Source of the DNA: Planococcus wigleyi
Lineage (GTDB): Bacteria; Bacillota; Bacilli; Bacillales_A; Planococcaceae
DNA: 64,000 bases
Reading direction: 5' to 3'
Assembly (NCBI RefSeq): GCF_014836985.1
Contig: NZ_JACSPU010000005.1
Location: 1 to 64,000, forward strand
Numbering within the stretch: the stretch's first letter is position 1; every line of letters begins with the position of its first letter. Position numbers and translations under genes: made by a program. A model generated the notes under the pieces. That model searched no databases. It had not been told where the DNA came from and saw only the letters and a program-made list of their open reading frames with translations. Below, one piece after another: positions 3,946 to 25,784 of the stretch.

Positions 3946-6125
3946 CCGCTTGTCCGATTGATTAAATTTTCCCAACTTTCCCTTAACTTAAGCCAGTCAA
4001 CAGATTCAGCATTGCCTCCATAAACTGCACGTTCATATGCTTCGGTCAGCTCAGTCATTTCCCGTGTTCCAAAAAACGAATCAATGTATGCGGCATAGGA
4101 TTTCAAGGTTTGGCCCGGCCTTCTATGGATGCCATACAAATCCAATTGCTTCAAAAGCCGCAAATACGCTTTTTCAAATTGTCCACTCCCACCACCGCTT
4201 TTCCGGTAATAGGAAACCAGTAGCTTGGGCATCCATTTACGGCGAATCTTAAAGAGAACGGATGCAGCAACACTCACTCCAAGCAATCCCCAAATCAATT
4301 TCCAGCGATTTTCTGAAATGAAATCTGCAACGCGTTCTCCAAATGAAGGACCGGCTGCAACAGCCGTTTCTTCTTCCTCAGCTGTTTGAGGATTATCTTC
4401 AAGGGGAAGTTCTTCTGGTTCAGGCTGTACCGGATCTTCCGCATCCAGCTCTAAATCGAAATCGATGGAAGCAGCGCCAGTAAAGCCGATAGTCGGTTCG
4501 AACAGCATCCACCCGACCCCAGGCATATAGGCCTCTACCCAAGAATGGGCATTATTGTTCGTCACTTGATACGTATCAATCTCGCCAGTGGTCCCGATCA
4601 GTTCTCCTTCATTGAAGCCTTTGACCCAACGGGCAGGAATATCCAAAGAACGCAGCATCACTACCATGGAACTGGAAAAATTATCGCAATACCCTCTTTT
4701 GGTTTCAAATAAGAACTGATCTACATAATCCTGATCAGCTTCAGGTACAGGAATATCGGATTGGCTGTATTCAAATCCGGAGATACTGAAATAACGTTCT
4801 ACAGCACGTGTTTTATCATAGACAGTTTCTGCCCCTGCCGTAATTTCAGCAGCCAGGTTTCTGACGCGTTCCGGCAGTTCATTGGGCAATTGCAAGAAAC
4901 GGTCGAAATCGCCCGAAAGCTCTGCTAAATCTTCATCGCTCGTTTCCCGTAATGCAGTTAAACTATAACTGGGCTCATTGAAAGCTATTTCATACACTTC
5001 AGGCTCAAATTCCTGTCCATTCTGATAGGTTTCAAATCGTTGATCTGCCGGGCTGTATTGATAATCCGGTGATTCTTCCATGAAAAAAGAAGCAGTCCCA
5101 TAAGGATAAAGAACAAACGGAAAATCTTGCTCCATCGACAAGATAGCCAAATCCAGTTCTTCTTCAGCCGGATCAAAGCCGGTATCAACCGTTTCGTCAT
5201 TGCCATAGAAGATGGACTCATCTACGTTTTCGGTTAATTCCCATCCTTTTGTCGTGTACACATCTTTCGACTCGACTTTCCAGTACTGCCCTTCTGATAC
5301 CTCTGCATGAAAAGCTACAGTATCGTCACCAATAAAGGATCCACCGAGACGCGAATCATCGACTCCGTATCCGATACGGCCAACATTGCCCCCCATCCCC
5401 GCGCCTCCTTGTCCGGAGAATGAAGTGATAAACGGCACAGGATCAGGCCAAATCGGGCCGGCTTTAGGCAGGTACAAGGCTAAAGCCGTCGATACTGCCA
5501 CCACTAAAACCAGGGGCACGGCAAAGGCAGCCAATTTTTCCGTCCGCTCCAGAATGCGGTGCCCTTCCATCCAACGGGCCAAATGCAATAATCCGGCTAA
5601 AAGCAGGCCGATCACCATGATGCGGACAATTGCCGCGTCTCCGGAATAAGGGCTGAACGTATCCAGGACTGCTATGAAAATGACCGTCAGCAAGTAAAAT
5701 AAAAAGATGCTTAATCTGAAACTTACCCAGTAATGAATCAAATAAATAGCCATCCATAATAAAGTGAAAAATAATACCGTACGGAAAACATCCGTTGTCT
5801 GTGCCCAATTTTGAGACATCAGAGCAGTAAAATTAACACTGAAATCCGTTCGGAGAAATGAAATGGCTTCGCCGGTAAAGAACAAATTCCCTGTATAGAC
5901 GTAGACAATGAACCAGAGAATATAGAGAATTTTGATGGGTCCTGAAAACCACCAAGGCGCTCTCAAGAAAGCCATTAATAAACCGGCAGCGATGAAAAAC
6001 AGAAACAATGCTTTATGGCCCGTTTCAGTCAGTACAATGACGGGCGTCAGCCATTCGGCAAGCATCAGAAAAACCAGCACATACAAAACAGCCATGAACA
6101 GTTTGTTTTTTCTTATGGAAGTCAT
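3942..6125 (-). CDS. membrane transglutaminase-like protein (TgpA/YebA type)
   Basis: A 727-residue protein with about six N-terminal transmembrane helices (to about residue 215), an extracytoplasmic transglutaminase core, one more helix near 615 and a cytoplasmic DUF4129-like tail. The core shows the nucleophile in RGYCDNFSSSM (Cys about 480), NNAHSWVEAY (His about 526) and GWMLFEPT, where the third catalytic position is Glu rather than Asp, as I recall for this family. It overlaps the DUF58 gene by 4 bp and has a GGAGGTGA ribosome site. Order matches B. subtilis yeaC-yeaD-yebA. The substrate is unknown; cell-envelope protein processing is inferred. Confidence 0.85.
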   Translation of the reverse strand: MTSIRKNKLFMAVLYVLVFLMLAEWLTPVIVLTETGHKALFLFFIAAGLLMAFLRAPWWFSGPIKILYILWFIVYVYTGNLFFTGEAISFLRTDFSVNFTALMSQNWAQTTDVFRTVLFFTLLWMAIYLIHYWVSFRLSIFLFYLLTVIFIAVLDTFSPYSGDAAIVRIMVIGLLLAGLLHLARWMEGHRILERTEKLAAFAVPLVLVVAVSTALALYLPKAGPIWPDPVPFITSFSGQGGAGMGGNVGRIGYGVDDSRLGGSFIGDDTVAFHAEVSEGQYWKVESKDVYTTKGWELTENVDESIFYGNDETVDTGFDPAEEELDLAILSMEQDFPFVLYPYGTASFFMEESPDYQYSPADQRFETYQNGQEFEPEVYEIAFNEPSYSLTALRETSDEDLAELSGDFDRFLQLPNELPERVRNLAAEITAGAETVYDKTRAVERYFSISGFEYSQSDIPVPEADQDYVDQFLFETKRGYCDNFSSSMVVMLRSLDIPARWVKGFNEGELIGTTGEIDTYQVTNNNAHSWVEAYMPGVGWMLFEPTIGFTGAASIDFDLELDAEDPVQPEPEELPLEDNPQTAEEEETAVAAGPSFGERVADFISENRWKLIWGLLGVSVAASVLFKIRRKWMPKLLVSYYRKSGGGSGQFEKAYLRLLKQLDLYGIHRRPGQTLKSYAAYIDSFFGTREMTELTEAYERAVYGGNAESVDWLKLRESWENLINRTSG

Positions 6126-20357: not shown

Positions 20358-21023
20358 TTACTGGCGAAATGGATTTTTCCACTCCATCAGCAATGCGTAA
20401 TCGGCAGATTCTTTGTCTTCTACATAATTGGACACCACTGCTACCGGCGTTCTCCCACAACGCAGAAGAAACGAAATCACGGGATCTTTCAGCTTTCCGC
20501 CGATGACTTGTTCTGCGTACTGTTCGGCTGTAAACCGGTCAGAATAATTATGGTATCCGGGCATTCTGCCCCCGCCAAGCAGACGTTCCAGCCCATCGTG
20601 CACCACTCGCTCATACATCGCCTGCATCAGAAGCTGCCCCAATTTCAACGACCGGTATTTCGGATGAACACAGATATCAACGATATACAATGTCGCACCA
20701 TCCGCCTTATGGTTTTGGATATAGCCGTTGTCCGTCGCCTCTTGCCATGTGTGCTCCGGATGAGCAGGATCAAAATCCGTCAACAATGCCGTCATCGAAC
20801 CCACTACTTCTCCTTCAACTTCAATGCACAGTGATCCTTCTGGATACAGAGCTACATGACTCGCCAATTGTTGTTCATTCCACCAGAGATCTGAAGAGAA
20901 TGGGGGCGGAAAACTTTCCTTTTGAATGGCAATCAAATCCGGAAAATCAGACTTTCCATAATTACGGATCTCTGCCTTCACCGGCTTGTCATTGTCAAAG
21001 ACATATTGCTTCTTGCTATACAC
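20358..21023 (-). CDS. GNAT-family N-acetyltransferase
   Basis: 221 residues from a GTG preceded by GGGGAGAGG; upstream in-frame codons run into the neighbouring terminator. The GNAT core holds YIVDICVHPKYRSLKLGQLL, the beta4-alpha3 acetyl-CoA motif, and a conserved LGGGRMPGYH stretch seen in larger GNATs acting on small molecules. No operon partner. The substrate is unknown. Confidence 0.8.
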   Translation of the reverse strand: MYSKKQYVFDNDKPVKAEIRNYGKSDFPDLIAIQKESFPPPFSSDLWWNEQQLASHVALYPEGSLCIEVEGEVVGSMTALLTDFDPAHPEHTWQEATDNGYIQNHKADGATLYIVDICVHPKYRSLKLGQLLMQAMYERVVHDGLERLLGGGRMPGYHNYSDRFTAEQYAEQVIGGKLKDPVISFLLRCGRTPVAVVSNYVEDKESADYALLMEWKNPFRQ

Positions 21024-21115
21024 ATTCCTCTCCCCTTTCTTAATCTCTATCATACGATATCGCTGCTTACAGAAACCACCATGCTTCCTGGCAACGGGAG
21101 TTTTTCCATGAAAAT

Positions 21116-21156
21116 GGCTACAGGCAAACTCAGTTAGAATGAGTTTGCCTGTAGCC
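21116..21156 (-). terminator. terminator of the regulator-propeptide operon
   Basis: A 17-bp arm starting GGCTACAGGCAAACTCA pairs with its complement across a short loop. It closes the transcript carrying the regulator and its peptide gene. Confidence 0.8.
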
Positions 21157-21196
21157 TGAAAAATGCTCAAAGTTGAGCTGCTATTTATTGAACCGA

Positions 21197-21292
21197 TTAA
21201 ATTGGCGGCAGGATATTTGGACCGCCGATGACCATCACACCCAATAAACCAGTGGACAAGGCTGATAGCAGAAACAGTTTTGTTTTCATCAT
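21197..21292 (-). CDS. putative signalling propeptide (31 codons)
   Basis: This short gene starts with ATG overlapping the regulator stop as ATGA and has a GGCGGTGA ribosome site 7 nt upstream. The product has a basic start (MMKTKLF), a hydrophobic export-signal-like core and the C-terminal tail IGGPNILPPI. In the RNPP quorum systems NprR-NprX and PlcR-PapR, the peptide gene lies just downstream of the regulator and the tail is the signal. The segment GPNIL resembles NprX KPDIV (mature peptide SKPDIVG). The mature form here might be PNILPPI or a neighbouring cut; that is inference. Confidence 0.65.
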   Translation of the reverse strand: MMKTKLFLLSALSTGLLGVMVIGGPNILPPI

Positions 21293-22527
21293 TTCAATTC
21301 ACCGCCATTCTCTTCCCGATAAGATTGGTAAAAATAAGCTTTTTCCCAATCTTCTTGTTTTTGGTAATAATCTGCTAATTCAGCTGCAATAGTTTTCGTT
21401 TCCTTTATATAACCATGTTTTCTGAAAAATGGAAACATTTTTTCTTCAGAATAGGTCAAAAGATCTGGTTGGGAAAAATTTCTTTTATCGAAGTAATTGG
21501 CATAAATATGAAAGTATTTATCCTCTAATGGATTGCTGATTGCTTTCAGTTCCTCAATCAGCAGCGTGGCATTTTGGCCTGTTTCAACCATTGCTTCCAA
21601 TAAACTTAATAGTACAGCTTTGTAGAAATAACTGTCGGGAGTTATTTTGTCTTTTAATGCATGCAGTATTTCTAAGGCTTCCCCATGCTCGCCTTTGATT
21701 TTCAGCAACTCGGTGTAGTTGTAGAGTGTTTGGTTATGCAATTCCATTTGTTTCGTCAAGTGCGTGTTGCGGATCAGCACTTCGTAAATGCTTTCTGCCT
21801 GTACCAGCAGGTTTCTCCGGGTATAATTGATGGCCAACAGCATTTGCGCATGCAGGAGCCGGATGTAATTATGGTGAAGCTGGAAAGATCGTACCGCCAG
21901 TTCTGCGTAATGCGCAGACAACTCATAGCGGTCAGCCAGCACCAGCATGCGTGCCTTCTGGTAATAAAACTCCCCTTCAAACTTTTGAGGAATGCTCTGG
22001 ATTCCTGAATCCAGGTTGTTTAGGAATTCGAGGGACCGGCTGTTGTCCCCCATCATAGAGGAGTACAGCGATTGAAAAAACTGATGTACCCAAAGCTCTG
22101 CTGCTAAAAAAGAAGCTTTCATGCGTTCCAGCAGCTTTTTCTGCCGTTCTGCCTTGACTCTGTCATTGTCATAAATATAAAAACGGAATTTATACAATTC
22201 GTACTGGTTCACCAACCCGGTGGATTGTATATAATCATTTTCCACTTCAAGTTGCTGGTACAAATTGCGCATGGTTTCAAGATCGTAATGAAGAGAGCAG
22301 TCAACAAATCTCCCGAGCAGTTTTTCCAGCCGCTTATGCTTTTCCAGTTCTTTGTTCAATTGGACGCCCATTTTCAACAACAATGCCTTGATAGTGGATT
22401 CGTGCGGCAAATAAGCATTGGATTCGATTTTGCTCAAATGAGAAATCGAACAGATGCCATCTGCCAATTGAGATTGCGTCAAATTGTTTTTCGAGCGGTA
22501 GTATTTGATAATCGAGCCGACGTTCAT
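21289..22527 (-). CDS. NprR/PlcR-type (RNPP) peptide-responsive regulator
   Basis: 412 residues. Residues 1-60 are an XRE helix-turn-helix (IIKYYRSKNNLTQSQLADG, then ICSISHLSKIESNAYLP), very like NprR and PlcR. The rest is an all-helical tetratricopeptide array, the peptide-binding part of RNPP regulators; the size is close to NprR. It lies between a subtilisin gene and a small propeptide gene, on the same strand, behind its own start (AAAGGGTGA ribosome site). In B. cereus-group species, NprR activates the protease nprA when bound to NprX. Control of the adjacent protease is inferred. Confidence 0.82.
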   Translation of the reverse strand: MNVGSIIKYYRSKNNLTQSQLADGICSISHLSKIESNAYLPHESTIKALLLKMGVQLNKELEKHKRLEKLLGRFVDCSLHYDLETMRNLYQQLEVENDYIQSTGLVNQYELYKFRFYIYDNDRVKAERQKKLLERMKASFLAAELWVHQFFQSLYSSMMGDNSRSLEFLNNLDSGIQSIPQKFEGEFYYQKARMLVLADRYELSAHYAELAVRSFQLHHNYIRLLHAQMLLAINYTRRNLLVQAESIYEVLIRNTHLTKQMELHNQTLYNYTELLKIKGEHGEALEILHALKDKITPDSYFYKAVLLSLLEAMVETGQNATLLIEELKAISNPLEDKYFHIYANYFDKRNFSQPDLLTYSEEKMFPFFRKHGYIKETKTIAAELADYYQKQEDWEKAYFYQSYREENGGELK

Positions 22528-22571
22528 AATTTCACCCTTTTTTACAGATTAAAAGAAATATACCATAAAAA

Positions 22572-22601
22572 AACAATCCCGACATTTTTGAAGGGATTGT
22601 T
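22572..22601 (-). terminator. subtilisin gene terminator
   Basis: Minus-strand AACAATCCC / GGGATTGTT with a 12-nt loop and TTTTTTT, separating the protease from the regulator, which therefore is at least partly expressed separately. Confidence 0.9.
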
Positions 22602-22623
22602 TGGCATTTAAAGTTATTACTGT

Positions 22624-23883
22624 TTATTGTACACGTGAGAATCCAAAGCCTGATGCGTAATCATCACCAACACCAGCACCTGATCCTGAAAGGATGTCAT
22701 ATGCTTTGGCGCGATTTTGCAGATTCGCACGAATTTGGACGTTTGAAGAATTTGGAGTCGTTGCCCAAATTTTTGCTGCAAGGCCTGCTGCATGCGGCGA
22801 AGCCATTGAAGTTCCACTGATTGTTGCATAGCCGCCTGTATACCAAGCAGAGTATACCGCTGCTCCAGGAGCTGAAACTTCAACATCGTATTTGCCGATT
22901 GAATAATCGCCATCTGTAGAGCTATAGCCGCGTGAAGAGAAATCCGCCACACGGTATGTGCCGTTCTGGATCACGTTTTCAAGTGCCGCAACTGCTACTG
23001 CATTCGGCAATGCGCCTGGGAAGCCGATTGATCCTTGTGCAGGACCTGAGTTGCCAGCTGCTGCAATAATCAATACCCCTTTGTTATATGCATAGTTGAC
23101 TGCGTTTGTAATCAAGCTGCTTTCCGCAGAAGATCCTAGAGACATATTGATGACTACTTTCGTTTTTAAAGCAGTAGCCTGATCTGCAACGTGGCGAATA
23201 GCTGCAGCAATATCATCGGAAGAACCTGAACCATCGTCGCCTAATACCTTATAAGCCCAAAGATCGGATTGAGGAGCAACTCCATATAATCCTCCATTCC
23301 CATTCGCAAGAGCTGAACCGGCTACGTGTGTGCCATGCCCCTGACGATCTGTACAGGTGCCGTTTGTGATGCTCGCGCCTAGAGTAAAGTCTTTACATTG
23401 TTCAATATTGCCCGATAGATCGGGATGATTCACATTAACCCCAGTATCCAGAACGGCGATATTGATGCCAGCACCACCTGATGTCTTGGCCAGGCTGGAA
23501 TTATTATAGATTGCTTTAATGCCCCATGGCGTCGCTTGAGAAGCAGCCATTGTTGAATATTTGGCAAGCGGTTCAGAAGATGTGGCTTCAATGCTGTATT
23601 CAGGAACTTTTTCTACTTTTATATTTTTGTTTTTCTGGAGAGCCTCATATTGCTTTGCGTTCATATTGGTGGTGAATCCTTCACCTTTAAAATCCCATTG
23701 GACCCCGTATTGGTTTTTAGCATTTTTCAGGTCCTGTTGATTCGCCGAATCGACGAGTACACGGAATTTCTCATTGCCATTCGCTGTTTCAGTGGATTCC
23801 CCGTTGGCGCTGACGCCCATTGCCGGTATTAGCAAAGTAGCTGCCAACATTGCCGTCGTAATGAATTTTGCTGATTTCTTCAT
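22624..23883 (-). CDS. secreted subtilisin-like serine protease (S8)
   Basis: 419 residues. A Sec signal peptide ends around ANG (26-28). An inhibitor I9-type propeptide covers about 38-98, and mature enzyme begins near 117. The catalytic triad is D146 (VLDTGVN), H183 (GHGTHVAG) and S359 (GTSMASPHAAG), with oxyanion N278 (AAGNSG). Two cysteines (C163, C177) could form a disulfide, as in some cold-adapted subtilisins. No C-terminal domain. It is expressed alone, with a long leader upstream and a terminator after, and lies beside an RNPP regulator that may control it. Confidence 0.94.
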   Translation of the reverse strand: MKKSAKFITTAMLAATLLIPAMGVSANGESTETANGNEKFRVLVDSANQQDLKNAKNQYGVQWDFKGEGFTTNMNAKQYEALQKNKNIKVEKVPEYSIEATSSEPLAKYSTMAASQATPWGIKAIYNNSSLAKTSGGAGINIAVLDTGVNVNHPDLSGNIEQCKDFTLGASITNGTCTDRQGHGTHVAGSALANGNGGLYGVAPQSDLWAYKVLGDDGSGSSDDIAAAIRHVADQATALKTKVVINMSLGSSAESSLITNAVNYAYNKGVLIIAAAGNSGPAQGSIGFPGALPNAVAVAALENVIQNGTYRVADFSSRGYSSTDGDYSIGKYDVEVSAPGAAVYSAWYTGGYATISGTSMASPHAAGLAAKIWATTPNSSNVQIRANLQNRAKAYDILSGSGAGVGDDYASGFGFSRVQ

Positions 23884-23947
23884 CGTTCAATCCCCTTTTC
23901 CAATATGGTATATGGCTGTTAGGATCCAGGAGCGGCGTCCCGCACCT

Positions 23948-23989
23948 TAACGTAATCCCGGTTGGTGAACCTGCCATACACTTACGTTA
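23948..23989 (-). promoter_or_regulatory. stem-loop in the subtilisin mRNA leader
   Basis: TAACGTAA (23982-23989 on the minus strand) pairs perfectly with TTACGTTA (23948-23955); inside, GGTT pairs with AACC (23960-23971). A 5' hairpin of this kind stabilises aprE mRNA in B. subtilis, so a similar role is plausible. It does not match a riboswitch class I know. Confidence 0.45.
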
Positions 23990-24050
23990 GCAGAACATCC
24001 GTTTTTCCGTAATTGGGAAATTCTCAAGAAAATTCCGACCATAAAACGAT

Positions 24051-24070
24051 TATGAGCTTATATACTCATA
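24051..24070. promoter_or_regulatory. candidate operator upstream of the subtilisin gene
   Basis: A 20-bp dyad with perfect 6-bp arms, TATGAG-8 bp-CTCATA. The outer TATG...CATA resembles the ends of the PlcR box, but with a 12-bp rather than 8-bp interior. It lies about 170 bp before the protease start, a natural place for the RNPP regulator to bind. The regulator-site pairing is inference. Confidence 0.45.
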
Positions 24071-24098
24071 CATTTGTGCCTATTTATTTTCCACATCA

Positions 24099-24138
24099 AA
24101 AGCCTCCTCATTGTTAAGTAAAACAATGAGGAGGCTTA
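24099..24138 (-). terminator. glucosidase gene terminator
   Basis: AAGCCTCCTCATTGTT pairs with AACAATGAGGAGGCTT across a short loop and is followed by TTTT on the minus strand. Confidence 0.9.
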
Positions 24139-24152
24139 ATTTACCTGCTATG

Positions 24153-25784
24153 CTATCCATAAATTTCTTTTTTCATAAAATAGATGCATGCTTCATAAGG
24201 TTGAAGCACCCCTTTAACCCGTTTTTCGTAATTGGTCAGAAGAAGTTCAGCATCATACGGCGTATTCCATGTGCAAGGGCGTTCGCTTAAATTGGAAGCA
24301 ATCAGCATTTTGGTATAGCGGTCTTCCCGTACATAAGCATAGACATCGGGGCAACCGGAATCCGTCAAATTGGTCGTTCCGTATACCAGCACATCCCAGT
24401 TTTGCCGCAGGTGAATCATCTTTTTATAATAAGACCAAATGGATTTCGGGTCGTCTTTCTGAGCTTCTACATTCAGCCATTTATAATTTGGGTTTACTGC
24501 CAGCCATGGTTCGGCAGTTGAGAAGCCACCGTATTTCCTGCTGTTCCATTGCATCGGCGTACGGGCATGGTCTCGGCTGATTTTTTTGATGATTTTCATC
24601 AAATCTTCATGGGGAACGCCTTCTTTGCGGTTGTACCGGTACATATTTTTGGTTTCAATGTCATTGTACATGTCAATATCATCAAACGGCGCATTGGTCA
24701 TCCCGATTTCCTGCCCTTGATAGATGAATGGCGTGCCCTGCATGAAAAAGTACATGCATCCCAAAGCCGTTGCACTTTCAAACCAATAATCCCGATCATT
24801 TCCCCAAATGGAAACCGTTCTTGGGCGGTCATGGTTTTCAAGATACAGGGAGTTCCATGCGACACCGTGGGCTGCTTTTTGCCAGCGGTCCAGAACTTCT
24901 CTTAAATCTTCTACGTCCAATCCGCCATTAACTTCATCACTGGCTGCTTCCAAGGCTTCCCGATGGAAAATCATATTGAATTTACCCTCATGCTCACTGA
25001 TCCATTGTTCCATGTCATGTGATTTAACGCTGTTTGCTTCGCCAACTGTGACAATATCATAACCCGAAAAAGCTTTCTCTTTCAATTCTGCCAGCATTTC
25101 CTGCAGACCTTCCACTTCCGTGAATTTTTCCCAAGCTGGAACATACGGAAGGTATTTAGGATTTGGCATATCGCTGTATTCTTTCTTTATATGGTTGATA
25201 GCATCTACACGGAAACCATCAACTCCTTTATCCAGCCACCAGCGGATCATTTCATAGACGGCTTTGCGCATATCTTCATTTTCCCAATTCAAATCCACTT
25301 GGTTTTTGGTGAAGATATGGAGATAGTATTGATTGGATTTCGGGTCAAAAGTCCATGCTGGTCCCCCGAAAATACATTCCCAATTGGTTTGCTGGTCCCG
25401 CCAGACATACCAATCTCGTTTCGGACTATCTTTTGAAGAACGGGATTCCACAAACCACGGATGCTGGTCACTTGTATGATTAATAACCAGATCGATGATG
25501 AGTCGCATTCCTCTTTTATGGACTTCTTTGAGTAAACGGTCAAAATCCTCCATCGTTCCCATTTCGTCCATAATGGCCTGATAATCACTGATATCATACC
25601 CATTATCTACATTTGGGGATTTATACATTGGACAAATCCAGATGATGCTGATGCCCAAGTCGTTTAAATAATCCAGTTTTTCTGTCACGCCATTTAAATC
25701 CCCGATGCCATCCCCATTTGAATCATTAAAGCTCCGTGGATAAATTTGATAGACTACGGCTTCTTTCCACCAGGTTTTTTTCAA
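24153..25784 (-). CDS. GH13 alpha-glucosidase (oligo-1,6-glucosidase family)
   Basis: 543 residues, a cytoplasmic GH13_31 enzyme without signal peptide. It hydrolyses terminal alpha-glucosides taken up by the cell. The four conserved regions are IDLVINHTS, GFRVDAINH (nucleophile D194), VGEAN (acid/base E249) and LENHDRPR (D319). Residue A195 stands where strict oligo-1,6-glucosidases carry Val; in studied enzymes Ala or Thr there goes with alpha-1,4 preference, so maltase-like activity is likely. It stands alone without a transporter. Trehalose-6-phosphate hydrolase is a less likely alternative. Confidence 0.88.
   Translation of the reverse strand: MKKTWWKEAVVYQIYPRSFNDSNGDGIGDLNGVTEKLDYLNDLGISIIWICPMYKSPNVDNGYDISDYQAIMDEMGTMEDFDRLLKEVHKRGMRLIIDLVINHTSDQHPWFVESRSSKDSPKRDWYVWRDQQTNWECIFGGPAWTFDPKSNQYYLHIFTKNQVDLNWENEDMRKAVYEMIRWWLDKGVDGFRVDAINHIKKEYSDMPNPKYLPYVPAWEKFTEVEGLQEMLAELKEKAFSGYDIVTVGEANSVKSHDMEQWISEHEGKFNMIFHREALEAASDEVNGGLDVEDLREVLDRWQKAAHGVAWNSLYLENHDRPRTVSIWGNDRDYWFESATALGCMYFFMQGTPFIYQGQEIGMTNAPFDDIDMYNDIETKNMYRYNRKEGVPHEDLMKIIKKISRDHARTPMQWNSRKYGGFSTAEPWLAVNPNYKWLNVEAQKDDPKSIWSYYKKMIHLRQNWDVLVYGTTNLTDSGCPDVYAYVREDRYTKMLIASNLSERPCTWNTPYDAELLLTNYEKRVKGVLQPYEACIYFMKKEIYG

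Follow-up and report, generated by a model that had tools for sequence, protein, structure and literature searches.

PlcR (~285 aa) is a regulator with a helix-turn-helix (HTH) domain and tetratricopeptide repeats (TPRs), encoded near the gene of the propeptide PapR. NprR of the Bacillus cereus group (423 aa) likewise combines HTH and TPR parts and has a cognate propeptide gene, and the NprR-NprX system controls an extracellular protease gene (PMC4970707, PMC3325205, PMC5641580). The NprR residues R126, W167, H201, N306 and D309 have been reported to bind the peptide SKPDIVG (PMC4970707). Five TPRs have been described for the PlcR fold and nine for that of Rap (PMC12700828); Rap, of the Rap-Phr systems, is without an HTH domain and acts through protein-protein contact (PMC4970707). 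Here a locus of Planococcus wigleyi is described in which an S8 protease gene, a regulator gene and a 31-codon open reading frame (ORF) follow one another in the order of transcription on the minus strand of a 64,000-nucleotide stretch (contig NZ_JACSPU010000005.1, positions 1 to 64,000; termed the window below). The following features were assigned to it:

23883-22624, minus strand: S8 subtilisin-type protease gene, secreted product of 419 aa (Pfam and PDB-chain matches)
22527-21289, minus strand: XRE HTH and TPR regulator gene, 412 aa, predicted peptide receptor (HTH_3, AlphaFold2, Foldseek)
21292-21197, minus strand: propeptide gene, 31 aa (conservation, control placements, frame-specific selection)
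21200..21223, minus strand: predicted pheromone codons GPNILPPI, ends approximate (ratio of nonsynonymous to synonymous change, tandem repeats of the equivalent unit)

The first-pass annotation had proposed that these genes form a peptide quorum-sensing cassette. All three were confirmed, together with the overlap of the propeptide ATG at 21292 with the TGA of the regulator (ATGA; translation MMKTKLFLLSALSTGLLGVMVIGGPNILPPI), and a cassette of RRNPP type beside a secreted protease was supported by conservation of the ORF, by sequence and by fold. The locus is read here, with a probability of about 0.82, as an RRNPP-type quorum-sensing cassette on the chromosome that belongs to a subfamily apart from NprR-NprX and would make secretion of the protease dependent on cell density.

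The locus shares with NprR-NprX the receptor architecture, the cognate propeptide gene and the extracellular protease gene, and NprR is the closest solved fold. It differs in the protease (S8 subtilisin here, NprA there), in the propeptide tail ([IV]xPP versus SKPDIVG) and in the NprR residues that contact peptide and Spo0F, which are mostly not conserved. With PlcR-PapR it has in common an HTH and TPR regulator with a nearby propeptide; the regulator is of 412 aa, the profile match to PlcR is weak and the tail is unlike the ADLPFEF of PapR. Foldseek also returned matches to Rap, from which the HTH domain sets the regulator apart. The same general signature is found in the clusters of RRNPP_detector, 21 of which were reported as novel and of high confidence (PMC10075063).

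Literature searches on RRNPP systems or quorum sensing together with Planococcus, and on the tail strings, returned no description of the cassette, nothing on quorum control of the enzymes represented by subtilisin 2gko and sphericase 1ea7, and no peptide quorum sensing of RRNPP type for the Planococcaceae. The main text of PMC10075063, PMC9765709, PMC11343458 and PMC12700828 holds no word beginning with Planoc and no mention of Sporosarcina, Lysinibacillus or Planomicrobium. Lysinibacillus sphaericus has been named for a receptor of the RopB clan (PMC10518010).

Propeptide gene and its tail

A genus-wide search located the regulator in 43 of 46 Planococcus genomes at an identity of at least 52%, in two pieces in one of them (G040). 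A small ORF of 31-56 codons was present at the 3' end of the regulator at 43/43 of these loci; its start was hydrophobic and contained lysine, and its tail had the form xPx[VI]LPP[ILVF]. Within the Planococcaceae, regulator orthologues (at least 398 bits with the family profile, the next score being 279) were found in 92/261 genomes and 9/19 genera. The regulator was directly followed by a small [IV]xPP-tailed ORF at 91/92 of the family loci, the sole exception being L141. Conservation of the downstream ORF in relatives and a signal-like N terminus, both put forward for checking by the first-pass annotation, were thereby observed.

The filter used to select these ORFs was passed at 90/92 true positions, at 3/729 control positions placed 300-900 bases off on the same strand and at 3/275 on the opposite strand. 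As the counted ORFs were chosen by a PP-tail filter, the regularity of the tails is not independent evidence by itself; the Planococcus ORFs were also listed unfiltered. A chance ORF was excluded by the conservation at 43/43 Planococcus loci, the control placements and the frame-specific selection described below. PP-tailed ORFs were also present at 2/2 loci of a second Bacilli family (...GMPPILPPA and ...GMPPIQPPV). Of the 92 propeptide rows, 69 passed a rough signal filter that used a basic start, hydropathy and a Shine-Dalgarno sequence. Regulators from other families with scores of 175-313 (L155-L163) had no downstream ORF with an [IV]xPP tail; in seven of them the 450 nt searched held no small ORF with signal-like features, a weak negative given that the same filter passes 69/92 known propeptides.

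The tails were compared in 92 rows (90 Planococcaceae loci and the 2 loci outside the family). The element [IV]xPP was present in 92/92 rows and P-x-[IV]-x-PP in 60/92. The first-pass annotation had likened a P-N-I-L core to the P-D-I-V of NprX; the P-x-I likeness stood in Planococcus and did not extend to the whole family, where the shared element is [IV]xPP. Planococcus tails fell by lineage into GPN[VI]LPP[IL], APHILPPL, GPHVLPP[FV], IPTILPPL and GPQVLPP[VL], with two singletons. Genus g17 carried PP[STQ][IV]LPP, PPDVMPPQ and E[VI]MPPQ, and the remaining genera [VIFL]PIHPP, IPIYPP, IPILPP and IPIRPP with a few variants.

Within clades, strong purifying selection was concentrated on the tail. 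In five Planococcus clades the ratio of nonsynonymous to synonymous change (pN/pS) over the last 8 codons was 0.066, 0, 0.022, 0 and 0.084, and over the rest of the ORF, in the same order, 0.40, 0.26, 0.41, 0.34 and 0.73. When the frame was shifted by one or two, the ratio for the tail stretch rose from 0.35 to 1.5 and 5.3. Three copies of IPIHPPIG were found in the propeptides of L133, L137 and L183, and L134 (locus 5232-5528) encodes a 98-aa precursor with four FPIHPPIL copies at a 13-residue spacing. The clearest indication that the tail would be the product comes from these repeated units. RRNPPA subfamilies with pheromone repeats in their propeptides have been described (PMC9765709).

Regulator and its relation to NprR

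Pfam placed HTH_3 at residues 7-57 of the regulator, and no Pfam TPR model matched it in the same scan. The TPR part matched NprR (4gpk) with an E-value of 1.3e-8 by single sequence and 5.5e-34 by family profile; the profile also matched Rap3T (7.7e-12) and PlcR (2qfc, 1.8e-4). An AlphaFold2 model consisted of the HTH domain followed by helical repeats, with a predicted local distance difference test (pLDDT) of 88.8 and a predicted TM-score of 0.79. The best 38 matches of this model in a Foldseek search against the PDB were all NprR, Rap or PlcR, with NprR first. A search of the P. wigleyi genome with PF18768 (RNPP_C) gave no match. By architecture, as predicted from sequence and fold, the regulator is an RRNPP receptor, and it groups with RRNPP proteins as the first-pass annotation had expected.

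The residues by which NprR contacts its ligands were compared in 24 representative rows; at this low identity individual alignment columns could be shifted by one or two residues. Among the SKPDIVG contacts, the identical residue was found in 4 rows for R126, 0 for W167, 3 for H201, 6 for N306 and 0 for D309, and Y165 and R343 were identical in 0/24 rows each. Of the Spo0F contacts, D107 and Y118 were identical in 0 rows, E188 in 22 and Y223 (as Y) in 5. The equivalent of N275, a peptide contact of NprR, was invariant (24/24), and an aromatic residue stood at F225 in 23/24 rows.

A tree was built from 44 rows (43 hand-chosen loci and the TPR part of a single NprR chain, itself on a long branch), several of them on long branches. 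L043, the locus with the broken regulator frame in G040, was dropped from the tree only. The clade structure alone was used, since some of the tail labels were wrong (e.g. L028, L107, L115, L134). NprR grouped with regulators that have no PP peptide; the clade uniting all PP-peptide regulators did not include it (moderate support, 89/99, not starred). Inside that clade there are also three regulators without a peptide, L141 and, on long branches, L155 and L160.

A second XRE and TPR-like protein is encoded in G000 (C10:471095-471796) and at comparable sites in many Planococcus genomes, in frames of ~474-498 aa with 21-24% identity. In genus g4 (L123, L124, L126) a second TPR paralogue lies 3' of the peptide gene; its profile match begins at position 32-46 with no HTH match, and it is perhaps Rap-like. 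A mobile or phage origin was considered and rejected: no relative was found in viral contigs or phage records, and a plasmid search returned only two distant matches (28-29% identity). One of these, L225 (Geobacillus stearothermophilus plasmid pBSO1, 894-2271), encodes a distantly related HTH regulator (28% identity); 16 bases beyond it lies a signal-like ORF of 46 aa with the C terminus EQDYPNP, and the two are possibly another plasmid-borne RRNPP pair.

Promoter box, proposed circuit and alternatives

The region 5' of the protease gene was read as follows:

24009..24020, minus strand: candidate operator box TTTCCCAATTAC, 5' of the protease promoter (conservation, genome uniqueness)
23984..23992, minus strand: extended -10-like element TGCTAACGT of the protease promoter (sequence reading, consensus only)
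23884..23982, minus strand: protease mRNA leader, with an inner hairpin at 23943-23932

The box core TTTCCCAAT was found 5' of the protease in 86/86 regulator-holding Planococcaceae genomes with a protease or a fragment of it (Planococcus 43, g17 12, g8 5, g9 2, g12 4, g13 7, g16 8, g18 1, g4 4). It took the form TTTCCCGAT in L006 and was readable only as TTCCCAATTAC in L008 and L010; in genus g4 (4/4) it stood farther from the protease. The second Bacilli family carried it as TTTTTCCCAAAC at 2/2 loci. In the window the box (24020-24009) is followed by the extended -10-like element, and the relatives read carry similar elements after it. The protease promoter showed no good -35 hexamer; the box overlaps or abuts the -35 position and lies near it across genera.

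The 9-mer of the box occurred 129 times in 1.58 million bases (93 loci, both strands, protease sites included), and a chance occurrence in a 250-base stretch is therefore rare. The exact 12-mer was found once in the P. wigleyi genome. Eleven sites there lay within one mismatch of the box, against 25 for a reversed control pattern, and all 10 one-mismatch sites lay inside open frames of at least 101 codons, stop to stop (one of just 102). Across the 46 Planococcus genomes, exact TTTTCCCAATTAC sites stood at the protease in 32/41 cases and elsewhere in 9; the reversed control gave 10. A larger regulon was rejected, the protease site being the only one outside such open frames in the P. wigleyi genome and the TTTTCCCAATTAC sites away from the protease standing near the control level.

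Regulator and protease also occurred together. Among 261 genomes, 85 held both, 7 the regulator alone, 2 the protease alone and 167 neither (Fisher p 1.7e-57 per genome, 1.2e-4 per genus, with genomes that are non-independent). The seven regulator-alone genomes include G106, where a contig end carries a fragment of the protease. Both genes were absent together from three Planococcus genomes. The protease adjoined the regulator at 85 loci, co-directionally in Planococcus (42) and g17 (12) and divergently in the other seven genera (31 loci, G106 included), and this survival of adjacency through inversion argues for function. In G061, which has the protease and no orthologous regulator, no box was seen upstream. 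Next to this box-less protease (L189), in divergent orientation, another HTH protein (51 bits) is encoded, possibly through a regulator swap.

In the proposed circuit the small ORF would be translated, as the selection on it suggests, and the propeptide exported by way of its basic and hydrophobic N terminus. Cleavage would release a proline-rich C-terminal peptide of ~7-9 residues around GPNILPPI, to which both the conservation and the tandem repeats point. The peptide could then be taken up again by an oligopeptide permease, seven SBP_bac_5 matches in the P. wigleyi genome being possible importers. It would occupy the TPR groove of the regulator, consistent with fold and linkage, and the loaded regulator would act at the TTTCCCAATTAC box. 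The subtilisin gene would most likely be activated, and conservation and uniqueness of the box suggest that it is the sole evident target; activation is the sign indicated by NprR and PlcR and by the position of the box near -35. In consequence the extracellular protease, a public good, would be secreted in a density-dependent manner.

Several observations weigh against this circuit. The known NprR peptide contacts are mostly absent, so the NprR binding mode is not transferable. When the regulator and propeptide were modelled with AlphaFold2 as a read-through fusion, the tail was unplaced in the groove (the last four blocks had a pLDDT of 23-30); the fusion fold neither supports nor excludes binding of the tail (L092, which has a TTG start, was left out of the second fusion alignment). 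The basic and hydrophobic N terminus was judged by eye and hydropathy. Across all 43 Planococcus loci the tail pN/pS was 0.28, which weakens an argument from constraint alone; the value arises because the clades differ in their tails, and change between clades is expected of a pherotype. The regulator frame of G040 is broken or misassembled, and L141 (G124) keeps the regulator without peptide or protease. G119 has the protease with its box at a contig end, with no orthologous regulator detected, and in 5/17 regulator-bearing g17 genomes regulator and peptide are intact and the protease is absent.

At all five of these protease-less g17 loci (L108, L112, L113, L114, L116) the promoter box (at one locus with an A to G change) and the protease terminator still flank the missing ORF. 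The five genotypes are candidate natural cheaters, in which signal and sensor were kept and the public good was lost.

A strict NprR-NprX system, in which the regulator would be an NprR orthologue and the pherotype would have diverged, as the first-pass annotation had inferred, would share the gene order of protease, HTH-TPR receptor and 3' propeptide. It would also fit the rank of NprR as best solved relative by profile and by Foldseek, the conserved equivalents of N275, E188 and F225, and the P-x-[IV] spacing in 60/92 tails. NprR homologues were reported from 21 genera (PMC9765709), and the hidden Markov model of that survey may include the present regulators under another name. Set against this, identity is low (0-6 of 24 rows) at the peptide contacts and, for Spo0F, at D107 and Y118, NprR falls outside the PP clade, with the long branches and unstarred support noted above, the protease is of S8 type instead of NprA, and the tails share a different motif. 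A separate subfamily is preferred to an NprX pherotype because contacts, protease and shared tail differ and the tree, at moderate support, sets NprR outside the clade, and the strict NprR-NprX assignment is considered unlikely. The first-pass annotation recognised the cassette correctly and named the nearest relative, though not the limits of the family.

The sign of regulation may also be the reverse, the regulator repressing the protease and the peptide relieving or strengthening the repression. The position of the box would fit a repressor as well, and some RRNPP receptors (PrgX, Rap) are antagonised by their peptide. The lack of a good -35 hexamer, with the box near -35 across genera, is rather the usual picture of an activator, and NprR activates nprA (PMC3325205), so that repression is judged quite unlikely; G061, having neither regulator nor box, is uninformative on this point. 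Least support was found for the small ORF being a membrane microprotein, a bacteriocin-like peptide or a translational leader beside a regulator that senses something else. In its favour, versions of 28-33 residues have almost no spacer between hydrophobic part and tail, unlike classical Sec propeptides. Against it, selection is focused on the last 8 codons and not on the hydrophobic part, the 3-4 tandem tail copies at four loci are best explained by the tail as product, and linkage to a TPR receptor holds at 91/92 loci, which makes this alternative very improbable.

The cassette, well supported as an RRNPP one, is preferably read as a quorum-sensing unit of its own subfamily. A wider version is considered probable, at a lower level of confidence: an undescribed RRNPP subfamily in nine Planococcaceae genera and a second Bacilli family, with [IV]xPP pheromones, one protease target, one box and candidate natural cheaters. 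Its tail codes would be specific to lineages (GPNVLPP[IL], GPQVLPP[VL], PPSILPPQV, VPIHPPVL), in up to four tandem copies. If correct, this would identify the signal, receptor and operator behind secretion of a protease family for which structures have been solved (2gko, sphericase), and a circuit of one signal, one receptor and one box would be unusually simple for an RRNPP system. The approximate position of the mature peptide is given by the tandem-copy propeptides, and the protease-losing genomes would make cheating on a quorum-controlled public good testable in natural isolates.

Protease, leader and transcript ends

The protease was assigned to Peptidase_S8 by Pfam (1.1e-50). Its closest solved chains were subtilisin 2gko (1.4e-153) and then sphericase 1ea7 (8.6e-141), and the protease of L132 differs from sphericase at 3 of 310 aligned residues.

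The leader hairpin GCGG-GACG-CCGC (23943-23932) was examined in 27 distinct Planococcus leaders (L076 was left out of the alignment for Ns and a duplicated stretch). Its four stem pairs were kept in 27, 27, 27 and 26 of the 27, with double changes at 2/4 pairs (modest covariation), and in many single folds it was enclosed by a longer TGGC...GCCA stem. No Rfam family was found in 20900-24300, the best E-value being 0.24 on the other strand. The aprE leader is a 5' stabiliser of its mRNA, and by analogy the hairpin is perhaps one too.

The remaining features lie 3' of the protease and propeptide genes:

22567..22602, minus strand: candidate intrinsic terminator in the protease/regulator gap, AAACAATCCC...GGGATTGTTTTTTT (sequence and RNA fold)
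22555..22566, minus strand: possible regulator promoter element ATGGTATATTTC (sequence reading of intergenic regions)
21116..21156, minus strand: 17-bp perfect hairpin 3' of the propeptide gene, possible terminator (RNA fold)

An inverted repeat with a T-run was seen by eye at the position of the protease/regulator terminator in the printed Planococcus intergenic regions. With this candidate terminator (22602-22567) in the gap, the protease gene and the regulator/peptide pair are probably transcribed separately. In G021 (C24:42866-45733) the protease is present as a tandem duplicate, with its own TTTTCCCAATTAC box before each copy.

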